From a virus, in the IMG/VR virus record IMGVR_UViG_3300032287_002642, positions 1 to 21,957 of that record: a DNA stretch of 21,957 bases; one strand, given 5' to 3'. Below are positions 3,721 through 14,396 of the stretch, in pieces; position 1 is the first letter of the stretch; each line of letters opens with the position of its first letter. The translations under genes and the position numbers were made by a program. The notes under the pieces are model-generated. The model ran no database searches. It was given only the letters and a program-made list of their open reading frames with translations, and was not told the origin of the DNA.

Positions 3721-4566
3721 TCAGTCGGCGGGTGTATTTACCCTCGCCGCCGTCGCTTTGAACCGGTCGGCGTCCGCACCGGACCACGCCCTCACCGACC
3801 GCTCCGGTGTCGGCCCGCCGCCCTTCGCCGGTTTGGCGGCGTCGTACTGCCCGCCGAGGCACAAAGCCACGAACCGCTCGCCCACGAACTGCGGCAGGGT
3901 GACCGGCGTCTCGAAGTACCGGCAACGCGGCAGCCGGGCCAACGCCTCGCCCGCTTGGTCGTACCACCCCGGCTCCGCGATCCGGGCCGCCCACGCCGGC
4001 GGCGGTGCCGCCGGCTTCCACTCGCGGCGGTTCCCGCCCGCCGCCCCGGTGTTCCACGCCCGGCGAAACGCCTGCCACGCCTCCCCGGCTCCGGTGTCCC
4101 CGAGCGAAGCGTCTCGCGGAGGAGGAGGAACTTCTCCTCTCCTCTCCTCTCCTCTACGGCGCTCGTGCGCCGGAGCGTCCGGCGCTTGAGCGCCGGGAGC
4201 CCCGGCGCGTCGGCGTTTGTCCTCGTGAGCCGCTGACCGGTCGGCGTGCTGGAGCCTCGACTTGGCCGCCTGGCTGAACCGGCGATCCCATCCGGGGATA
4301 GCAACGGTGGCGTCCGTCTCGTCGATCTCCAGCCACCCGACGGCCTCGACGGCCCGCCAGAAGTCCGCATCCGCCCCGCACGTCCGCACGAGCCGGGCCA
4401 CGGTCATCCGTGCCCGCCCGTCGGTCGTGTTCATGGCCGCCCAGCCCCAGAGCCGGAGGAGCCGAAACGTCACCACCTCGACGGGCTCGCCCGTCAGGTC
4501 GATCAGCTCCTGCACCTCCGGCTTATCGGGCAGGCCGAGGTCATAGGCAATCCACTCACCCGCCAT
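3721..4566 (-). CDS. Replisome-organiser / DnaD-like N-terminal phage protein
   Basis: A 281-residue protein from an ATG at 4566, six bases after GAGGAGG. Residues 1-110 resemble the N-terminal winged-helix region of phage replisome organisers: EWIAYDLGLPDKPEVQELI, VTFRLLRLWGWAAMN, then ARLVRTCGADADFWRAVEAVGWLEI and a DRRFSQAAKSRLQ helix. Family knowledge says such proteins bind the phage origin and recruit the replicative helicase. A low-complexity, basic linker (about 116-160, including the pentanucleotide repeat) leads to a C-terminal region rich in Trp and Pro (WAARIAEPGWYDQAGEAL). It sits next to the ParB-like gene in the replication section. No helicase loader is seen beside it. Confidence 0.68.
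   Translation of the reverse strand: MAGEWIAYDLGLPDKPEVQELIDLTGEPVEVVTFRLLRLWGWAAMNTTDGRARMTVARLVRTCGADADFWRAVEAVGWLEIDETDATVAIPGWDRRFSQAAKSRLQHADRSAAHEDKRRRAGAPGAQAPDAPAHERRRGEERRGEVPPPPRDASLGDTGAGEAWQAFRRAWNTGAAGGNRREWKPAAPPPAWAARIAEPGWYDQAGEALARLPRCRYFETPVTLPQFVGERFVALCLGGQYDAAKPAKGGGPTPERSVRAWSGADADRFKATAARVNTPAD
4133..4155. repeat. Pentanucleotide tandem repeat inside coding region
   Basis: TCTCC is repeated 4.6 times on the plus strand (AGGAG-type repeats on the coding strand) within the linker of the replisome-organiser-like gene. A 5-base unit is not a multiple of three, so slippage would change the reading frame at the hinge between its two halves. Confidence 0.8.
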
Positions 4567-4816
4567 ACGCCGCCTCCTCGCCGTCGTCCTCGAGCTCCAC
4601 ATCGTCCGCCGCCGCCGGCGTCGCGTCCCACAGCTCCTGCAGCTTCCGCCGCTCCTCCGCCAACGCCTTCCGCCTGGCCGCCAACTCGATCAGCAGATTC
4701 CGAGACGCTGCCATCCCGATCTCGTCGACACGGTCGAGGATCTGCTTCTTGATCGCGTCCAGCTCGTGGGCCTGGGCGATGGCGATGAGAGCGGCGTAGT
4801 CGTGGGGCAGGGTCAT
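4556..4816 (-). CDS. Small coiled-coil phage protein
   Basis: An 86-residue protein that starts in a 4-base ATGA overlap with the ParB-like gene and ends 11 bases inside the replisome-organiser gene. Nearly all of it is predicted helix, with a long charged coiled-coil-like stretch (ELAARRKALAEERRKLQELW, residues about 45-64) followed by an acidic tail (DDVELEDDGEEAAYGG). Family not recognised. The position between ParB-like and replication-initiation genes suggests an accessory replication role, but this is only context. The ribosome site (AAGGGAG) is further from the ATG than usual, so translation is probably coupled to the upstream gene. Confidence 0.65.
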   Translation of the reverse strand: MTLPHDYAALIAIAQAHELDAIKKQILDRVDEIGMAASRNLLIELAARRKALAEERRKLQELWDATPAAADDVELEDDGEEAAYGG

Positions 4817-5724
4817 TGGGTTTTGACACTCTCCCTTGCGAGCTTCACGAGATACTCGGCGTGGCAGCGCTCCGGGTAGCAGTGACAGATCAATACCTTG
4901 CCGACGAGATCGCCGGCACGCTCAGCGATGCTCGGCTTGTGCGGGAGGTAGTGCAGCCGGTAGGCGTCGCACACATCGTCTCGATCGCCGTCTTCACCGA
5001 GAATGAACGGATTGCCGTATCGCGTCCCTCGATCCACGCGAACCGCCAGACCCTCGGCCTCGGCCCATGCGATCAAGTTCTTGTCGTTGGATGCGTTGGC
5101 GACCACCGTAGCGCCGCCTTCGCACCTTTCCTGCCGGTCACGCTCGTCTTTGCGCCAATCGTCGGTTGGCTTCTTCGCCACCTCACGCTTGGCGTCTTGA
5201 AGCGTAATCTTTCCGGCCTTCAGGCGCTCGAACACTTCAGGAGCTTGGGCCTTTACCTTCTTGGCGTCCTGAACGTAGCGGTCGTTGACGCCGACGGATT
5301 TTGCGGCCTCTTCGCGGGCCATCAAAGCACGTGGCGGGCTGGAAACTTGCGGAAGTTTTTCCGTAAGTTTTTCAGCGTCTTTCTTCGGCCTTCCTTCTGT
5401 CTCTTTCCTCCTGCGTGCAGCATCTTGCGCGAAGAACGGCTCCAGCTCAGCAGCGACGGCCGCGAGGGCCGATTTGCCCATGTGCCGCCGCCGGTCGTTC
5501 AGCGACACCGCAAACGCGGTCGGCTCGTCGCCCTTGTATTCCATGATGATCGGCTTGATCTCAGCCCGCCGGCACGCCTCAAAGCGATTCCGGCCGTCAA
5601 GGATCATGCCTTCAAACGTCCAGATCGGCTGGAGTTGGCCTTGTTGCCGAATGTCCTCGGCGAGTTCGTCCAGCTTCTCATCGTCCAACATCGGCCAGAC
5701 GTTTGCGATCGGGTGGTTATTCAC
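4813..5724 (-). CDS. ParB-like nuclease domain fused to DUF4326
   Basis: A 303-residue protein starting at a GTG in a GTGA overlap. Residues 1-100 are a ParB/Srx-type domain: LAEDIRQQGQLQPIW, then the signature ILDGRNRFEAC (41-51). A basic linker and a helix-turn-helix-like region (about 130-190, AAKSVGVNDRYVQDAKKV) follow. The last 100 residues match DUF4326: a VVANAS opening, RYGNPF near 235-240, and ICHCYPERCHAEYL near the end, with the conserved Cys and His residues intact. Phage ParB-domain proteins usually act as DNA-binding or nicking regulators; DUF4326 is an uncharacterised domain common in phages. The fusion couples a DNA-recognition module with a probable small-molecule or nucleotide module. 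Confidence 0.82.
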   Translation of the reverse strand: MNNHPIANVWPMLDDEKLDELAEDIRQQGQLQPIWTFEGMILDGRNRFEACRRAEIKPIIMEYKGDEPTAFAVSLNDRRRHMGKSALAAVAAELEPFFAQDAARRRKETEGRPKKDAEKLTEKLPQVSSPPRALMAREEAAKSVGVNDRYVQDAKKVKAQAPEVFERLKAGKITLQDAKREVAKKPTDDWRKDERDRQERCEGGATVVANASNDKNLIAWAEAEGLAVRVDRGTRYGNPFILGEDGDRDDVCDAYRLHYLPHKPSIAERAGDLVGKVLICHCYPERCHAEYLVKLARESVKTQ

Positions 5725-9555: not shown

Positions 9556-9800
9556 CAGCGGCCTCCTGCTCTGATTCGCCATGCCTGGGCCTGGAGCACC
9601 TGCGACATCGCCTCGATCTTGGCCGCCGCGTCCTCTCGTGCCGCGGCCTCCGTCTCGTGCCACCCATCACCGCCGTACAAGCTGTCGCCAACTGAGGCGT
9701 ACAACTTGCCGTGCACGTCCACAGCCTCGGCGGTGCTGAAATGCACGAACACGCCATCGGACCTGATCTGTTCGTAAACGTCTGCCCGGTGAAGCCTCAT
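9555..9800 (-). CDS. Hypothetical small protein
   Basis: An 81-residue protein starting in a 4-base overlap with recT. The first half is beta-rich (DVYEQIRSDGVFVHFSTAEAV, KLYASVGDSLYGGDGWH) and the second half is one long Ala-rich helix (EAAAREDAAAKIEAMSQVLQ). No domain recognised. The tight coupling to RecT on one side and a TGATG junction on the other makes it a real operon member, possibly a RecT accessory protein. Confidence 0.62.
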   Translation of the reverse strand: MRLHRADVYEQIRSDGVFVHFSTAEAVDVHGKLYASVGDSLYGGDGWHETEAAAREDAAAKIEAMSQVLQAQAWRIRAGGR

Positions 9801-10534
9801 GCCGTCACCTCGCTTTCGATCGCGGCGTGCCGTTCGTTGATCGCGGCGTCGAGCTGCTCCCGCTGGGCGGGAGATAACCGGCCGTTACTCACCGCCTGGT
9901 CGGCGTCGTCACCGATCCGGCCCAGATCATCGACCGTCACCGCCTGGGCGACGCGGTCCCGCCAGCCGGGACGCTTGGCCGGCTCGGCGGCCTTCGGCGT
10001 CGGCATCGCGTCCCGCAGCTCGTCCGGGTCGTAGTTCCCGACCGCACCGGCCCAGCCGATGCCCTTTAGCGCCGCCGTGATGCACCGGCTGCGGATCATC
10101 GCCCTCGGAAACTTGCTGTGGTTGCCGCCCGTGAGCCCGGCCTTCTTCGAGTCTTCGGCCGTCCATGTCTCAGAGTGCTTGTCACCGTTCGGGTGCGTCA
10201 GGTGCAGCACGGCCCGCGTGTCGTCGAGCGTCTCAAACTCAGCCCGGCCGCCGGACTCCTTGAAACGGGCCAACTGGCTGTCGGCCTTCTCGACGACGTT
10301 GCCTTTGATGATCTGGAGCGAGCGGATCGCCCTCATCGGCGGGATGCCCATCTCCCGGCCCGTCAGGACGATGGCGGCAAACTGCTCGCCTGTCCTGATG
10401 TGGTCGGGCAGGAATCCGGTCTTCACCATCTGCGAGCCGGCTTGCACCAGCTCAAAAAAGTTGAAGGACTCCGTCGCCTCGCGGACGGCCACTTCGCCGC
10501 CTCGCACTTCCGTCGTGATCTCGTTTTCCGCCAT
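9797..10534 (-). CDS. recT: RecT-family single-strand annealing protein
   Basis: A 245-residue protein from an ATG at 10534 after GAGGAGGAATTAGGG. Hallmarks of phage RecT-type annealing proteins appear in order: FFELVQAGSQMVKTGFLPDHI, AAIVLTGREMGIPPMRAIRSL and IIKGNVVEKADSQLARFKES, then SETWTAEDSKKAGLTG, NHSKFPRAMIRSRCITAALK and YDPDEL. These correspond to the family's conserved lipid-like 'Gly-x-Glu-x-Gly-Ile-x-Pro-Met' and 'Trp-Thr-x-Glu-Asp-x-x-Lys-Ala-Gly-Leu' blocks. It promotes annealing of complementary single strands during phage recombination. Length is slightly short of the usual 260-330. No RecE-type exonuclease is next to it; the resolvase-like nuclease is far downstream. Confidence 0.85.
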   Translation of the reverse strand: MAENEITTEVRGGEVAVREATESFNFFELVQAGSQMVKTGFLPDHIRTGEQFAAIVLTGREMGIPPMRAIRSLQIIKGNVVEKADSQLARFKESGGRAEFETLDDTRAVLHLTHPNGDKHSETWTAEDSKKAGLTGGNHSKFPRAMIRSRCITAALKGIGWAGAVGNYDPDELRDAMPTPKAAEPAKRPGWRDRVAQAVTVDDLGRIGDDADQAVSNGRLSPAQREQLDAAINERHAAIESEVTA

Positions 10535-11422: not shown

Positions 11423-11615
11423 TGGATTCCTGCTCCTGTGCTTCGAGCCGTCGAAACAGCTCCGTCCTGTAGATCGCCTGATCGTGGTTCGCCACGATCT
11501 CTAAACGCACTCGATCGCCTCGCAAGCTGTGGACACGAACGACAACGTCATCTGCTGGACAATCACCGGGGAGGGTGATGGACTGACCTTCTCGACGGTC
11601 GAGTCGGAGTGGCAT
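11400..11615 (-). CDS. csrA: CsrA-family post-transcriptional regulator
   Basis: A 71-residue protein aligning along its length with CsrA: an opening L-R-L-D-R-R-E-G-Q-S-I (compare the usual LxLSRKxGESI), then DDVVVRVHSLRGDRVRLEI, then DQAIYRTELFRRLE, where Arg50 of YRTEL matches the RNA-binding Arg in the family's HREEI motif. CsrA dimers bind GGA motifs in mRNA leaders and alter translation or stability. The first 115 bases overlap the end of the HTH gene in a different frame, an exceptionally long overlap. Phage-borne CsrA proteins are known but uncommon. The AAAGG site upstream is modest. A role in host or early-operon mRNA control is inferred. Confidence 0.8.
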   Translation of the reverse strand: MPLRLDRREGQSITLPGDCPADDVVVRVHSLRGDRVRLEIVANHDQAIYRTELFRRLEAQEQESNGECHGR

Positions 11616-11959
11616 TGCTGCTTGGCCTTTCGCTTGTCGTCGTATCGCCGTTGAATCTCACGCCGGTGTCGCTGCCGGTACTCGACGGTGCGGCTGCTCG
11701 GTCGTGCCGTGCATCCGTGTTCCGCGAGTTGCCGAAGCTCCGGCGTCCATCCCCGTTGAATCTCTTTCGCCCGCTTCCGGATCGTGCTCTGCACAGGGTC
11801 TTTCGGAGTCGGCAAACCCGTCCGAACCGACCACTCGTGCCACACCAGATCCACCGATTCGCCGACCACCCACGCCGTCGATCGGATCGACAGCCCTACC
11901 CCTAGGCAGATGTCAATCAGGTCGTGATCGACTCGCCCCTCTCCACCGTTCGTCTGCAT
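11501..11959 (-). CDS. Helix-turn-helix protein, first gene of early operon
   Basis: A 152-residue protein. I choose the ATG at 11959 because AGGGGA lies seven bases before it; the ATG at 11965 touches that site. Residues 12-45 (VDHDLIDICLGVGLSIRSTAWVV...) look like a homeodomain-like or sigma-4-like helix-turn-helix, and TIRKRAKEIQRGWTPELRQLAEHG continues as further helices, followed by a basic C-terminal tail. It is the first gene after a leader of about 190 bases that carries operator-like repeats. A candidate regulator of its own promoter. The last 38 codons overlap csrA, so the tail may be of little functional weight. Confidence 0.68.
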   Translation of the reverse strand: MQTNGGEGRVDHDLIDICLGVGLSIRSTAWVVGESVDLVWHEWSVRTGLPTPKDPVQSTIRKRAKEIQRGWTPELRQLAEHGCTARPSSRTVEYRQRHRREIQRRYDDKRKAKQQCHSDSTVEKVSPSPSPVIVQQMTLSFVSTACEAIECV

Positions 11960-12061
11960 CTCCATTCCCCTAACGTGTACGCCCGTTCACTTAGTTGGGA
12001 TTTAGCCTACCCACGATTTGCAGCGGGTCATCCCCCGAAAACCACGGGCGAAACGGGCGTC

Positions 12062-12174
12062 CTTGCCAAGGTGTCCAGCAAGGTTACGTAGCGAACCTTG
12101 CGTCGAAACCAAACGCCCGAGGAGTTTCAATCCCCGAGCGTTTGAGCAAGGTAAAGTCAGCTACCGAACCTTGT
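12062..12174. repeat. Six CAAGG/CCTTG repeats (operator or att arm sites)
   Basis: The pentamer occurs as CCTTG at 12062, 12097 and 12170 and as CAAGG at 12068, 12080 and 12148. It forms three inverted pairs with inner spacings of 1, 12 and 17 bases. In two pairs the flanks are also shared: GCAAGGT on one side and CGAACCTTG on the other. The outermost pair exactly covers a TTGACA promoter. The pattern suggests repeated sites for one DNA-binding protein. Confidence 0.6.
12111..12145. other. 14-7-14 inverted repeat: attP core candidate or leader hairpin
   Basis: Two 14-base arms (CAAACGCCCGAGGA and TCCCCGAGCGTTTG) flank GTTTCAA. A 7-base centre between imperfect inverted arms is the geometry of a tyrosine-recombinase core site, and CAAGG repeats lie on both sides. 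Alternatively, both arm differences become G-U pairs in the leftward RNA but C-A mismatches in the rightward RNA, so a 14-bp leader hairpin in the early transcript is equally supported. It lies between the excisionase-like gene and the early operon. Confidence 0.45.
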
Positions 12175-12178
12175 CAAC
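12150..12178 (-). promoter_or_regulatory. Putative leftward early promoter with operator
   Basis: A perfect -35 TTGACA (12173-12178) is followed after 17-18 bases by a weak -10 (TTACCT or TACCTT, 12149-12155). The inverted CAAGG...CCTTG pair covers both hexamers, so a bound repressor would block it. It would drive the HTH-csrA-recT operon with a leader of about 190 bases. The weak -10 suggests a need for activation or a different sigma preference. Confidence 0.38.
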
Positions 12179-12214: not shown

Positions 12215-12457
12215 CTACGCCTTCGGCTTTTTCGAGCGCGAACGAGACGCGGCGAGCTGCTCGCGTTTGCGGAGCGAGCGGTTAGAGATCACGCGGGCCA
12301 GCTCTTCGGCGGATTGGCGTCGAACCATCCACACACGCTCGCCGAGACGTTCGCCTTCGAGGTCGCCGTCCCTGATCTTCAGGCAGATCGTCTTCGGCGT
12401 GCAGCCCACGATCTCGGCGGCCTCTGCCACTGACACGAGTTCGCTGGGCTTTGCCAC
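12215..12457 (-). CDS. Excisionase-like helix-turn-helix protein
   Basis: An 80-residue protein from a GTG at 12457 with GGCGGAGGTG upstream. Residues 6-52 (LVSVAEAAEIVGCTPKTICLKI, then GDLEGERLGERVWMVRR) are the HTH_17/MerR-like excisionase domain: first helices, recognition turn and a two-strand wing ending in Trp. The C-terminal tail is very basic (SLRKREQLAASRSRSKKPKA). It lies between the integrase, which it diverges from, and the attP-like region, the usual place for an excisionase. Excisionases bend att DNA and steer integrase towards excision, and many also repress early promoters. A regulator-only role is possible. Confidence 0.72.
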   Translation of the reverse strand: MAKPSELVSVAEAAEIVGCTPKTICLKIRDGDLEGERLGERVWMVRRQSAEELARVISNRSLRKREQLAASRSRSKKPKA

Positions 12458-12534
12458 GCCACACCTCCGCCGCGCACCCGCCCTCGCGGATGCGTACTGT
12501 TACCTACCGACCGAACTACAACGGAGAGGGCGGG

Positions 12535-12575
12535 ATTGTACATGCGTTCAGGACTGAACATGCGTGAGGTACAAT
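12535..12575. promoter_or_regulatory. Palindromic divergent promoter/operator for xis and int
   Basis: ATTGTAC (12535-12541) and GTACAAT (12569-12575) form the outer inverted repeat, GTTCAG-GA-CTGAAC (12546-12559) the inner one, and ACATGCGT is a direct repeat at 12540 and 12558. TACAAT, one base off the -10 consensus, reads outward on each strand, so leftward excisionase and rightward integrase transcription could both start here. The -35 boxes are poor (TTCAGG-like), as expected for activator or repressor control. Confidence 0.55.
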
Positions 12576-12605
12576 CTCGGTTCCTCCGGTCGGCAAGGAA
12601 CAGGA

Positions 12606-12668: not shown

Positions 12669-13577
12669 ATGAAATTGACGGACGTTCTCGACCGATACGC
12701 GGTCCTCATGAATCTCTCGGCGCGGTCCGTGGTGCTGTACCGGCACTCGATCGCGAAGCTCGGCGAGTTCGTGGGCCACGAGCCGACGCTTGCCGATCTC
12801 GACGATTTCACGGTGGCGAAGTTCTTGCGATGGCGAGCCACCAACACCCGCGGCGGGAAGCCGATCTCACCGGAGAGCGTGGCGAAGGACCGTTCGCAGA
12901 TCCTCGCCCTCTGGAATTGGTCGTGCCGCAAAAAGATCCACGAGGGCGAATGGCCGGCCCTCGCCCGGCAGAAACGAATCCACCGCACGCCGAAGGCGTA
13001 CACCTCGAGCGACGTTGCCAAGATCATCATGCAGGCTCGGCAGCGTCACCGCCGAACCGGTGGGCTGCCGTCTTCGTGGTGGTGGTCCACGATCATCTAC
13101 ACCGCCTGGTGCTGCGGCTCGCGGATCGGCGAGCTGATGCAGCTTCGATGGCGGGACGTGGACCTTGAGAATCGGCGGGTGCTGTTCGTCGCCGCGACGC
13201 GGAAGGGCGGTGCCGCAGACATCTCGCACGCTCTGCCGGCCGATCTCTGCCAGCAGCTCGAGGAGCAACGCCGCGGGCCGGACGATCTCGTGTGGCCGTG
13301 GGACCGGCAGCCGACGAGCATCTATCCGTCCATGCGGCTGCTCTGCCGGGCTGCCGGCGTGCCGTACCGGGCATTTCATGCGATCCGAAAAGCCTCGGCG
13401 TCGTACGTGGCTGCCGGGGGCGGGGATGCGACGGCGCACCTCGGACACTCCGATCCGGCGATGACCCGCGGCCACTACCTCGATCCGGCGATCACGCAGA
13501 CGCGGTCGGCCCTCGACTACCTACCGCCGCTCGACCTAGCCGACGACGTGGCCGAGTTCGTGCCGGAGCCGGAATGA
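12669..13577 (+). CDS. int: Tyrosine recombinase / phage integrase
   Basis: A 302-residue integrase from an ATG with GCGGAG seven bases upstream. Residues 1-100 are the SAM-like core-binding domain (MKLTDVLDRYAVLMNLSARS, VVLYRHSIAKLGEFVG). Catalytic residues are all present: Arg152 in GSRIGELMQLRW, Lys179 in TRKGG, His237 and Arg240 in HAIRKASASY, His260 in LGHSDP and Tyr270 in TRGHYLD. It is a compact XerC/D-sized enzyme without an N-terminal arm-binding domain. It catalyses site-specific integration and excision by strand exchange through a Tyr-DNA intermediate. It diverges from the excisionase-like gene, and the candidate core site is 0.5 kb upstream. Confidence 0.95.
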   Translation: MKLTDVLDRYAVLMNLSARSVVLYRHSIAKLGEFVGHEPTLADLDDFTVAKFLRWRATNTRGGKPISPESVAKDRSQILALWNWSCRKKIHEGEWPALARQKRIHRTPKAYTSSDVAKIIMQARQRHRRTGGLPSSWWWSTIIYTAWCCGSRIGELMQLRWRDVDLENRRVLFVAATRKGGAADISHALPADLCQQLEEQRRGPDDLVWPWDRQPTSIYPSMRLLCRAAGVPYRAFHAIRKASASYVAAGGGDATAHLGHSDPAMTRGHYLDPAITQTRSALDYLPPLDLADDVAEFVPEPE

Positions 13578-13626
13578 CCGCTTTTCCCGCGGAAAACCGC
13601 CCCCAAAAAAATCTTTCCTCACCCTG

Positions 13627-13655
13627 TTGACCTACTATGGACGATAGTCTACAGT
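13627..13655 (+). promoter_or_regulatory. Promoter with overlapping palindromes
   Basis: TTGACC (13627-13632), a 17-base spacer and TACAGT (13650-13655) make a good sigma-70-like promoter. The spacer contains ACTAT-GGACG-ATAGT and the -10 is embedded in GTCTAC-A-GTAGAC (13647-13659), so repressor control is likely. It precedes the rightward mini-operon by about 45 bases. Upstream, TTTTCC-CGC-GGAAAA and a run of seven A lie after the integrase stop. Confidence 0.6.
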
Positions 13656-13698
13656 AGACCCAGACGAGAACGAGACACCCAAACCAAGGAAACGAACG

Positions 13699-13833
13699 AT
13701 GAACGTCATCATCAACTTCGACACGATCATCCACGCCGAAACCGGGACAGTGATTCAGGAGTGCGGATCGCAGGAACAAGCAACGATGATTGCGGCCGAC
13801 TGCGGATTCAACGTCATCGGATGGATCTACTGA
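13699..13833 (+). CDS. Small 44-residue protein, first of rightward mini-operon
   Basis: Not among longer frames, but it has AAGGAAA six bases before its ATG, sits 45 bases after a good promoter and ends at TGA. The sequence (MNVIINFDTIIHAETGTVIQ, then ECGSQEQATMIAADCGFNVIGWIY) looks like a compact beta-alpha-beta domain with two Cys. A strong hairpin follows its stop. Unknown family. As the first product of an operator-controlled promoter beside int it might regulate lysogeny or act as a small anti-host protein. Confidence 0.65.
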   Translation: MNVIINFDTIIHAETGTVIQECGSQEQATMIAADCGFNVIGWIY

Positions 13834-13845
13834 GAAGCCCGCCCC

Positions 13846-13872
13846 ACCCGCCCGGCACTTCGCCGGGCGGGT
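13846..13872 (+). terminator. Strong intergenic GC hairpin
   Basis: ACCCGCCCGGC and GCCGGGCGGGT form a perfect 11-bp stem around ACTTC, between two genes of the rightward mini-operon. No T tract follows in either direction, so it may be an mRNA-processing or stability element or a weak terminator that lowers expression of the later genes. Confidence 0.5.
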
Positions 13873-13900
13873 CACCACCACGAGAGGAGAGGAACGAGAA

Positions 13901-14119
13901 ATGAGCAAGACGCTTTCCGATTTGGCAAAAAGGAACCCAGATAAAATCGACTCCATCGAGAGAGACGACACGGGGTGGATCATTTATCTTACGGACGACT
14001 GGGAGGAAGCCAGCGATCCAATGTGCCCGAGCCAGATGATCTTTGAAGACACTGTCCGGGAGGTGCTGTCGGCGTTCCGATCAATCCGAAGGCGTCAGGG
14101 GTGCGGGGCTGCGAAATGA
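13901..14119 (+). CDS. Hypothetical 72-residue protein
   Basis: The ATG at 13901 is preceded by GAGAGGAGAGGAACGAGAA, and the stop forms ATGA with the next gene. The protein starts SKTLSDLAKRNPDKI, continues SIERDDTGWIIYLTDDWEE, and then has DTVREVLSAFRSIRRRQG, a mix of helix, short beta hairpin and basic helix. Not recognised. An upstream extension of the frame would read through the GC hairpin and is rejected. Likely a small phage control protein. Confidence 0.65.
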   Translation: MSKTLSDLAKRNPDKIDSIERDDTGWIIYLTDDWEEASDPMCPSQMIFEDTVREVLSAFRSIRRRQGCGAAK

Positions 14120-14322
14120 CCCGCATCAACACCACCGACTACGTCCGGCCGACGACGGCGGCCACGCTCGCCGGCGTCAGCCGAGCCCTGGCCTACCGGA
14201 TGGTCAAGGACGGCACCGTCCCGAGCGTGGAGATCGACGGCACCGTGTTTGTCCACCGGCGGGATGTTGCCAAGATCGTGGCCACGCCGGGGATGGGGCG
14301 GCCGAGGAAGGCCAAGCCATGA
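14116..14322 (+). CDS. Excisionase-like helix-turn-helix protein
   Basis: A 68-residue protein in ATGA overlaps with both neighbours. Residues 10-55 (YVRPTTAATLAGVSRALAYRMV, then VPSVEIDGTVFVHRRDVAKI) form an HTH_17/MerR-type domain with the usual Tyr in the recognition helix and a short wing. The tail is basic (GMGRPRKAKP). It is the second such protein in the window and is transcribed away from int. It may be a repressor or co-regulator matched to the palindromes, or an accessory excision factor. Confidence 0.72.
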   Translation: MTRINTTDYVRPTTAATLAGVSRALAYRMVKDGTVPSVEIDGTVFVHRRDVAKIVATPGMGRPRKAKP

Positions 14323-14396
14323 CCGTTCGCCAGACCCTTGCGTGGCTTCCAGTGACGATACCAGTGGCTCTGCTGCTGCGGTGGCTGGCAGGTTGA
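14319..14396 (+). CDS. 25-residue membrane peptide
   Basis: A tiny gene in ATGA overlap with the HTH gene: MTVRQTLAWLPVTIPVALLL then RWLAG. It is a single amphipathic or membrane-spanning helix with one flanking Arg on each side. The junction geometry, same as in all true neighbouring genes, is the main evidence. It ends just before the shared terminator. Could be a small membrane regulator or toxin-like peptide. Confidence 0.45.
   Translation: MTVRQTLAWLPVTIPVALLLRWLAG

Follow-up and report, generated by a model that had tools for sequence, protein, structure and literature searches.

Positions 12062-12178 of the window (the whole stretch that was analysed, a virus record of 21,957 bases) are most plausibly interpreted as controlling a leftward early operon, with a putative promoter and candidate operators. 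We propose a model for a temperate phage in which this region would be controlled by an HTH/O1/O2 cassette, the early message would carry a 5' hairpin, and integration would use a separate tRNA attP. Taken as a whole, we regard this model as probable. Its computed parts are the repeats, the co-inheritance of regulator and operators, the concerted change of the operators, the hairpin pairing and the identity of the tRNA. From the sequence we infer binding, repression, the transcription start and the function of the hairpin.

In the model, the HTH protein (12457-12215) would bind O1 and O2 and thereby repress early transcription. The promoter would be of the sigma-70 type on the minus strand (TTGACA at 12177-12172, -10 box at about 12153-12148); O2 sits within this spacer and O1 lies 73 bp downstream of it. 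Together with O1/O2, the HTH gene would be exchanged as an immunity-type cassette. Transcription of the early mRNA is predicted to start at about 12141, so that the message would open with a strong hairpin (12144-12110), which most likely protects or regulates it. Integration would occur elsewhere, at an attP (12519-12537) that corresponds to a tRNA-Ser(GCT) 3' end. The features are as follows.

11501..11965, minus strand: the early operon's first open reading frame (154 aa), without a match to any family
11966..12078, minus strand: remaining early leader, with blocks common to all group-1 phages and L116
12079..12100, minus strand: O1, the second candidate operator, in the leader (CAAGGTTCGCTACGTAACCTTG); left edge of the exchanged cassette
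12110..12144, minus strand: RNA hairpin of the early leader, predicted to be 5'-terminal; 14 bp, loop UUGAAAC, -23.3 kcal/mol
12148..12153, minus strand: putative -10 box TACCTT, 18-bp spacer; relatives have TATCCT, TAGATT or TACCTT at the same position
12152..12173, minus strand: O2, candidate operator for the HTH_17 protein, a pseudo-palindrome of about 22 bp within the -35/-10 spacer (CAAGGTTCGGTAGCTGACTTTA)
12172..12177, minus strand: -35 box TTGACA of the leftward early promoter, predicted from the consensus; TGTCAA is invariant in 18 of 18 aligned phages
12215..12457, minus strand: HTH_17/excisionase-family gene, 80 aa, proposed repressor of the early promoter
12519..12537, plus strand: predicted attP core, the 3' end of tRNA-Ser(GCT) as reverse complement, 16-19 bp
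12669..13577, plus strand: tyrosine recombinase (integrase, int), 302 aa; PF00589 E 4.9e-9, phrog_1 E 5.4e-32

Relatives, gene order and the early promoter

Relatives were collected by scanning virus contigs with the integrase, which yielded 80 loci. Seventeen of these (group 1, integrase 68-91% identical) could be aligned across the whole region, and they are unbroken at the control region because phage genes flank it on either side. A second group, with integrases of about 54% identity (the 54% group), has an unchanged gene order of early gene, promoter, HTH gene and int. When the early-gene protein was used as bait, relatives were not found; the CCTTGCCA block retrieved group 1, one further relative (L116) and unrelated matches.

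The early genes run leftward from 11965. Blocks of the leader at 11972-12078 (GTTCACTTAG, GGGTCAYCCCC and TCCTTGCCARRGTGTCCA) are kept in the group-1 phages and partly in L116, whose integrase is 42% identical. Their conservation suggests that the leader may have an additional function. The minus strand also encodes a replication initiation-like protein (3721-4602), a ParB-like/DUF4326 protein (4813-5724) and a RecT-like annealing protein (9797-10534); the DNA of the last matches phage record MW202627 (Manatee Spring) at 69%. A second HTH_17/excisionase-like gene lies on the plus strand at 14101-14322, and several relatives (L004-L006, L008 and L016-L018) lack the stretch 13576-14390 as one block. 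The hosts of the virus are probably planctomycete bacteria.

An early promoter and operator upstream of the early operon had been proposed in the preliminary description, and the putative boxes listed above support this by inference. The -10 box is weak, and a promoter scan of the window at a stricter threshold reported no site. Part of the 54% group has TTGACG-17-TACACT.

Repeats and the leader hairpin

Six CAAGG/CCTTG pentamers (at 12061, 12067, 12079, 12096, 12147 and 12169) lie within 113 bases, compared with a maximum of 4 and a mean of 2.3 for the best 117-base stretch in 100 dinucleotide shuffles. The pentamer cluster noted earlier was therefore borne out as denser than any of the shuffles. 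One pentamer pair had also been said to cover TTGACA exactly. It does not, as the minus-strand TTGACA (12177-12172) shares only two bases with CCTTG (12169-12173), and the outer pair extends from the -35 to the -10 box. Comparison with the relatives shows that the pentamers belong to more than one family. CCTTGCCAAGG (12061-12071) is part of a block kept in all relatives, where CAGAG or CAAAG is frequently found as the second half, and the 12147 CAAGG does not fall in register. On this comparison, the real repeat unit is the candidate site of about 22 bp, found at 12079-12100 and 12152-12173.

A 14-7-14 inverted repeat, CAAACGCCCGAGGA GTTTCAA TCCCCGAGCGTTTG, exists as had been described, but it occupies 12110-12144 and not 12111-12145, a difference of one base. 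As DNA it pairs at 12 of 14 positions. Two repeats of the 14-7-14 form with 12 or more pairs occur in the window, and each of 20 shuffles contains none or one. In the leftward RNA both DNA mismatches become G-U pairs, giving a perfect 14-bp stem with 12 Watson-Crick and two G-U pairs and a z-score of -5.0; the other strand scores -3.2. Because transcription is predicted to start at about 12141, from the promoter position alone, the early RNA would begin with the repeat.

The sequence TTGAAA is constant, and the arms vary with pairing kept, even among phages with identical integrases. For instance, between L012 and L017 a G-C pair has become A-T on both sides of the stem. In the group-1 types that are in register the mismatches are G-U, not A-C; this is a hand count that covers few independent events, as a one-base loop difference put the formal alignment out of register. 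The 54% group has a hairpin at the same place, soon past the -10 box and just ahead of the ribosome site, with stems of GTCAGG/CCTGAC or GCGAG/CTCGC and a 9-base loop ending in TGAGA. All (100%) of its cells are paired and 4 of 6 pairs have changed on both sides, compared with 0-1 in slid controls, although the events are few and the z-scores weak (-0.5 to -2.0). A constant centre with free arms is the pattern expected of an RNA hairpin, and the opposite of that expected of a DNA-binding or recombinase site.

We propose that the hairpin acts either in 5' mRNA protection or as an RNA operator. Stem-loops that stabilize mRNAs from the 5' terminus have been reviewed (PMC3997798), and the phage structure shares with them a stable stem, placed where the message is predicted to begin. 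It differs in that its loop sequence is constant across phages, whereas protection alone would not require constancy. We consider it possible, though less likely than not, that the constant loop (UUGAAAC, or UGAGA in the 54% group) is bound by a protein of the phage or the host that regulates translation, decay or antitermination of the early message. Such an RNA operator would be compatible with the control-region model and would specify the job of the hairpin. It would account for the constant loop in both phage groups, on stems that vary while staying paired, and the gene 43 operators of T4 and RB69 likewise conserve the top of their hairpin (PMC3014915). However, the RNA-binding protein has no candidate, and the loop of L116 differs. 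More speculatively, these phages may represent a planctomycete-type family with a loop-conserved, arm-variable hairpin at +1, in which an RNA-binding factor, encoded by phage or host, recognizes the loop. This would add a post-transcriptional layer of lysis-lysogeny control beside the HTH_17 'mini-repressor' cassette.

Candidate operators that change with the HTH gene

The two candidate operators of the window are identical at 16 of 22 positions, O1 lying 73 bp downstream of O2; the O2 copy is imperfect and its symmetry is poor. At both positions, the relatives carry other pseudo-palindromes of about 22 bp: CAAGGGCGGxTAxCGGCCCTTA in type B, CAGTGTTCGxCGAxGAACxCTA in type C and CAGCGxACGAxxACGTTCGxTA in type D. 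The spacing between O1 and O2 is 73-77 bp in all four types. Across 18 phages O1 and O2 change in concert, switching with the HTH allele. Among the 153 pairs of these phages, HTH identity correlates with operator identity at r = 0.99 for O1 and 0.98 for O2, and the correlation of int identity with operator identity is about 0. For example, L016 and L017 have 100% identical int but only 17% identity in HTH and 36-41% in the operators; L003 and L010 are 71% identical in int, 100% in HTH and 95% in the operators. Directly past O1, sequence conservation returns. Regulator and operators are co-inherited and uncoupled from the flanking genes, as in an immunity-type cassette. The spacer between the -35 and -10 boxes in the 54% group holds a motif that tracks the HTH type and recurs at a second early promoter. 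Second-promoter copies of the spacer operator are found in the early regions of L023 (1930-1950), L024 (6736-6774) and L032 (6862-6900).

Because the HTH gene and the operators adjoin, physical linkage by itself yields co-inheritance, and it contributes to the pattern here. It does not, however, account for the resemblance between the two copies of each type despite their distance, and it is only this concerted change of two separate copies that would favour binding. The simplest mechanism would be that the HTH protein represses the early promoters and that its gene moves together with O1/O2 as an immunity-type cassette. Against a repressor role, the family name of the HTH protein is excisionase (PF12728, E 6.9e-5; TIGR01764, E 1.7e-4; PHROG excisionase, E 3e-4), and most of its scores, namely those for Pfam and NCBIfam, fall below the curated cut-offs.

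The lambdoid immunity region consists of a repressor gene and its cognate operators, which are exchanged as a unit. The proposed cassette is similar in that the regulator gene and both operator copies swap jointly on a conserved backbone, and in that an operator overlaps the early promoter. It differs in that the regulator is an HTH_17/excisionase-like protein of about 80 aa and not CI, with putative roles in operator binding and immunity. Additionally, there would be one target promoter, with the second site downstream in the leader and a hairpin leader between the sites. Under this model, homo- and heteroimmunity groups of uncultured phages would be predictable from sequence alone, and small HTH_17 'excisionase' proteins, labelled Xis by annotation pipelines, may act as repressors.

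We think it rather doubtful that the HTH protein is a dual recombination directionality factor (RDF) like Apl of phage 186 or Cox of P2, which would repress the early promoter via O1/O2 and also drive excision at attP. The HMM matches to the excisionase family and the position of the gene between attP and the early operon would fit such a role, and Apl binds att and early promoters alike (PMC7498355). Like Apl and Cox, the phage protein is a small excisionase-family protein adjoining int with predicted sites at the early promoter. However, the sites bound by RDFs are found at att as direct repeats spaced by one helical turn (about 10-11 bp) (PMC7498355), whereas the candidate sites here are single pseudo-palindromes of about 22 bp that lie 73-77 bp apart. 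A search for HTH sites within 6 mismatches across the window returned O1 and O2 only, with none near attP.

The proposed attachment site and other readings of the repeat

Several other roles for the 12110-12144 repeat were weighed against that of a protective or regulatory hairpin. A promoter-proximal intrinsic terminator (attenuator) is improbable. The GC stems of types C and D are followed by UUUUU, but this U-run is missing in the window type and in the 54% group, and a terminator scan of the window found none.

The preliminary description had considered the repeat as a possible attP core of the tyrosine integrase, flanked by arm or excisionase sites, so that one region might unite integration and early transcription. 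That reading is now largely refuted, and we hold it to be very improbable. The geometry of inverted arms around a 7-base centre fits, the centre TTTCAATCC is invariant in 18 phages, and the int gene is 500 bp off. However, the repeat arms are unlike in L016 and L017, which have 100% identical int and the same attP; the repeat has no tRNA half and no attB-like match; and the 54% group has the tRNA-Ser site without the 12110-12144 core sequence. Instead, a tRNA-Ser 3' end stands about 130 bp from int in each group-1 relative that covers the HTH-int gap. None of the other virus contigs searched has the exact 12110-12144 sequence. As an attB it is absent from 142 Pirellulales genomes, in which the 5 matches at up to 3 mismatches all lie in long open frames without a tRNA or a related int. 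In distant int relatives (40-54%), GTTTCAAT is missing or unrelated.

The loop UUGAAAC (window 12124-12133, minus strand) resembles a tRNA-Phe anticodon loop, and also the end of CRISPR repeats; support was found for neither. An att site in the anticodon loop was rejected, as the tRNA 3' half does not come after the loop. It is extremely unlikely that the hairpin is a solitary CRISPR repeat or a CRISPR mimic: many CRISPR repeats have a 3' end similar to GGATTGAAAC and Rfam gives a match to CRISPR-DR9, but at 16.7 bits (E 1.2) this is far under the gathering threshold of 45, the arms are freely variable among relatives, and the window holds one copy only.

We propose that the attachment site lies at 12519-12537, in the HTH-int intergenic region and about 400 bases off the control region 12062-12178. 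The candidate core, CGGAGAGGGCGGGATT, was chosen on tRNA identity and position. Its CGGAGAGGGCGGGAYT part covers 12522-12537, and 19 bp including CAA cover 12519-12537; 0.05 matches at up to 2 mismatches are expected by chance. The tRNA-Ser end motif occurs 25 times among 146 Pirellulales genomes, of which 22 carry it, compared with 0 for a reversed-pattern control, and ARAGORN ends a tRNA-Ser(gct) at the motif in 18 of 20 fetched loci. Several of the matched tRNA-Ser genes are followed by CAA, like the phage sequence, and lack an encoded CCA. Among the phages, CGGAGAGGGCGGGAYT is present in the HTH-int gap as a single copy per locus in all group-1 loci covering the gap, and also in the 54% group, L036 excepted.

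The call rests on tRNA identity and position because an integrated copy of the phage family was not found; 39 virus contigs with the tRNA-Ser end were all unrelated to the phage and gave no lysogen junction. Phage DNA flanks the predicted attP left and right, so that the site is uncut, and the window has no tRNA gene; the record would therefore be an unintegrated form. Thus, the earlier view of an unintegrated phage genome holds, though at another site than had been guessed. The attP is of the T-loop/acceptor type (Islander, PMC4383910). It is like the subsite J tRNA 3'-end attP of Islander (PMC4383910) in comprising 16-19 bp of the tRNA, from T-loop to discriminator end, beside int. It differs in that the target is tRNA-Ser(GCT) of Pirellulales-like hosts, with CCA not encoded, and in that no integrated example was found. 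The corrected attachment site, tRNA-Ser(GCT), points to a Pirellulales-like host.

In L038, L039 and L081, a T-arm-like repeat that lies 60-100 bp upstream of int was considered as another tRNA attP and had 0 matches in 149 Planctomycetota genomes. In a Pirellulales genome (L096, about 1501-1580), the tRNA-Ser end motif occurs without a tRNA gene and is followed downstream by GAGTACAATC in nearly the way seen at the phage attP; this may be an att scar or a chance match. Right of attP in the window (12531-12578) there are inverted repeats (GATTGTAC at 12534 and GTACAATC at 12569) and direct repeats of CATGCGT (12541 and 12559), which are possible integrase arm sites or part of an int promoter.
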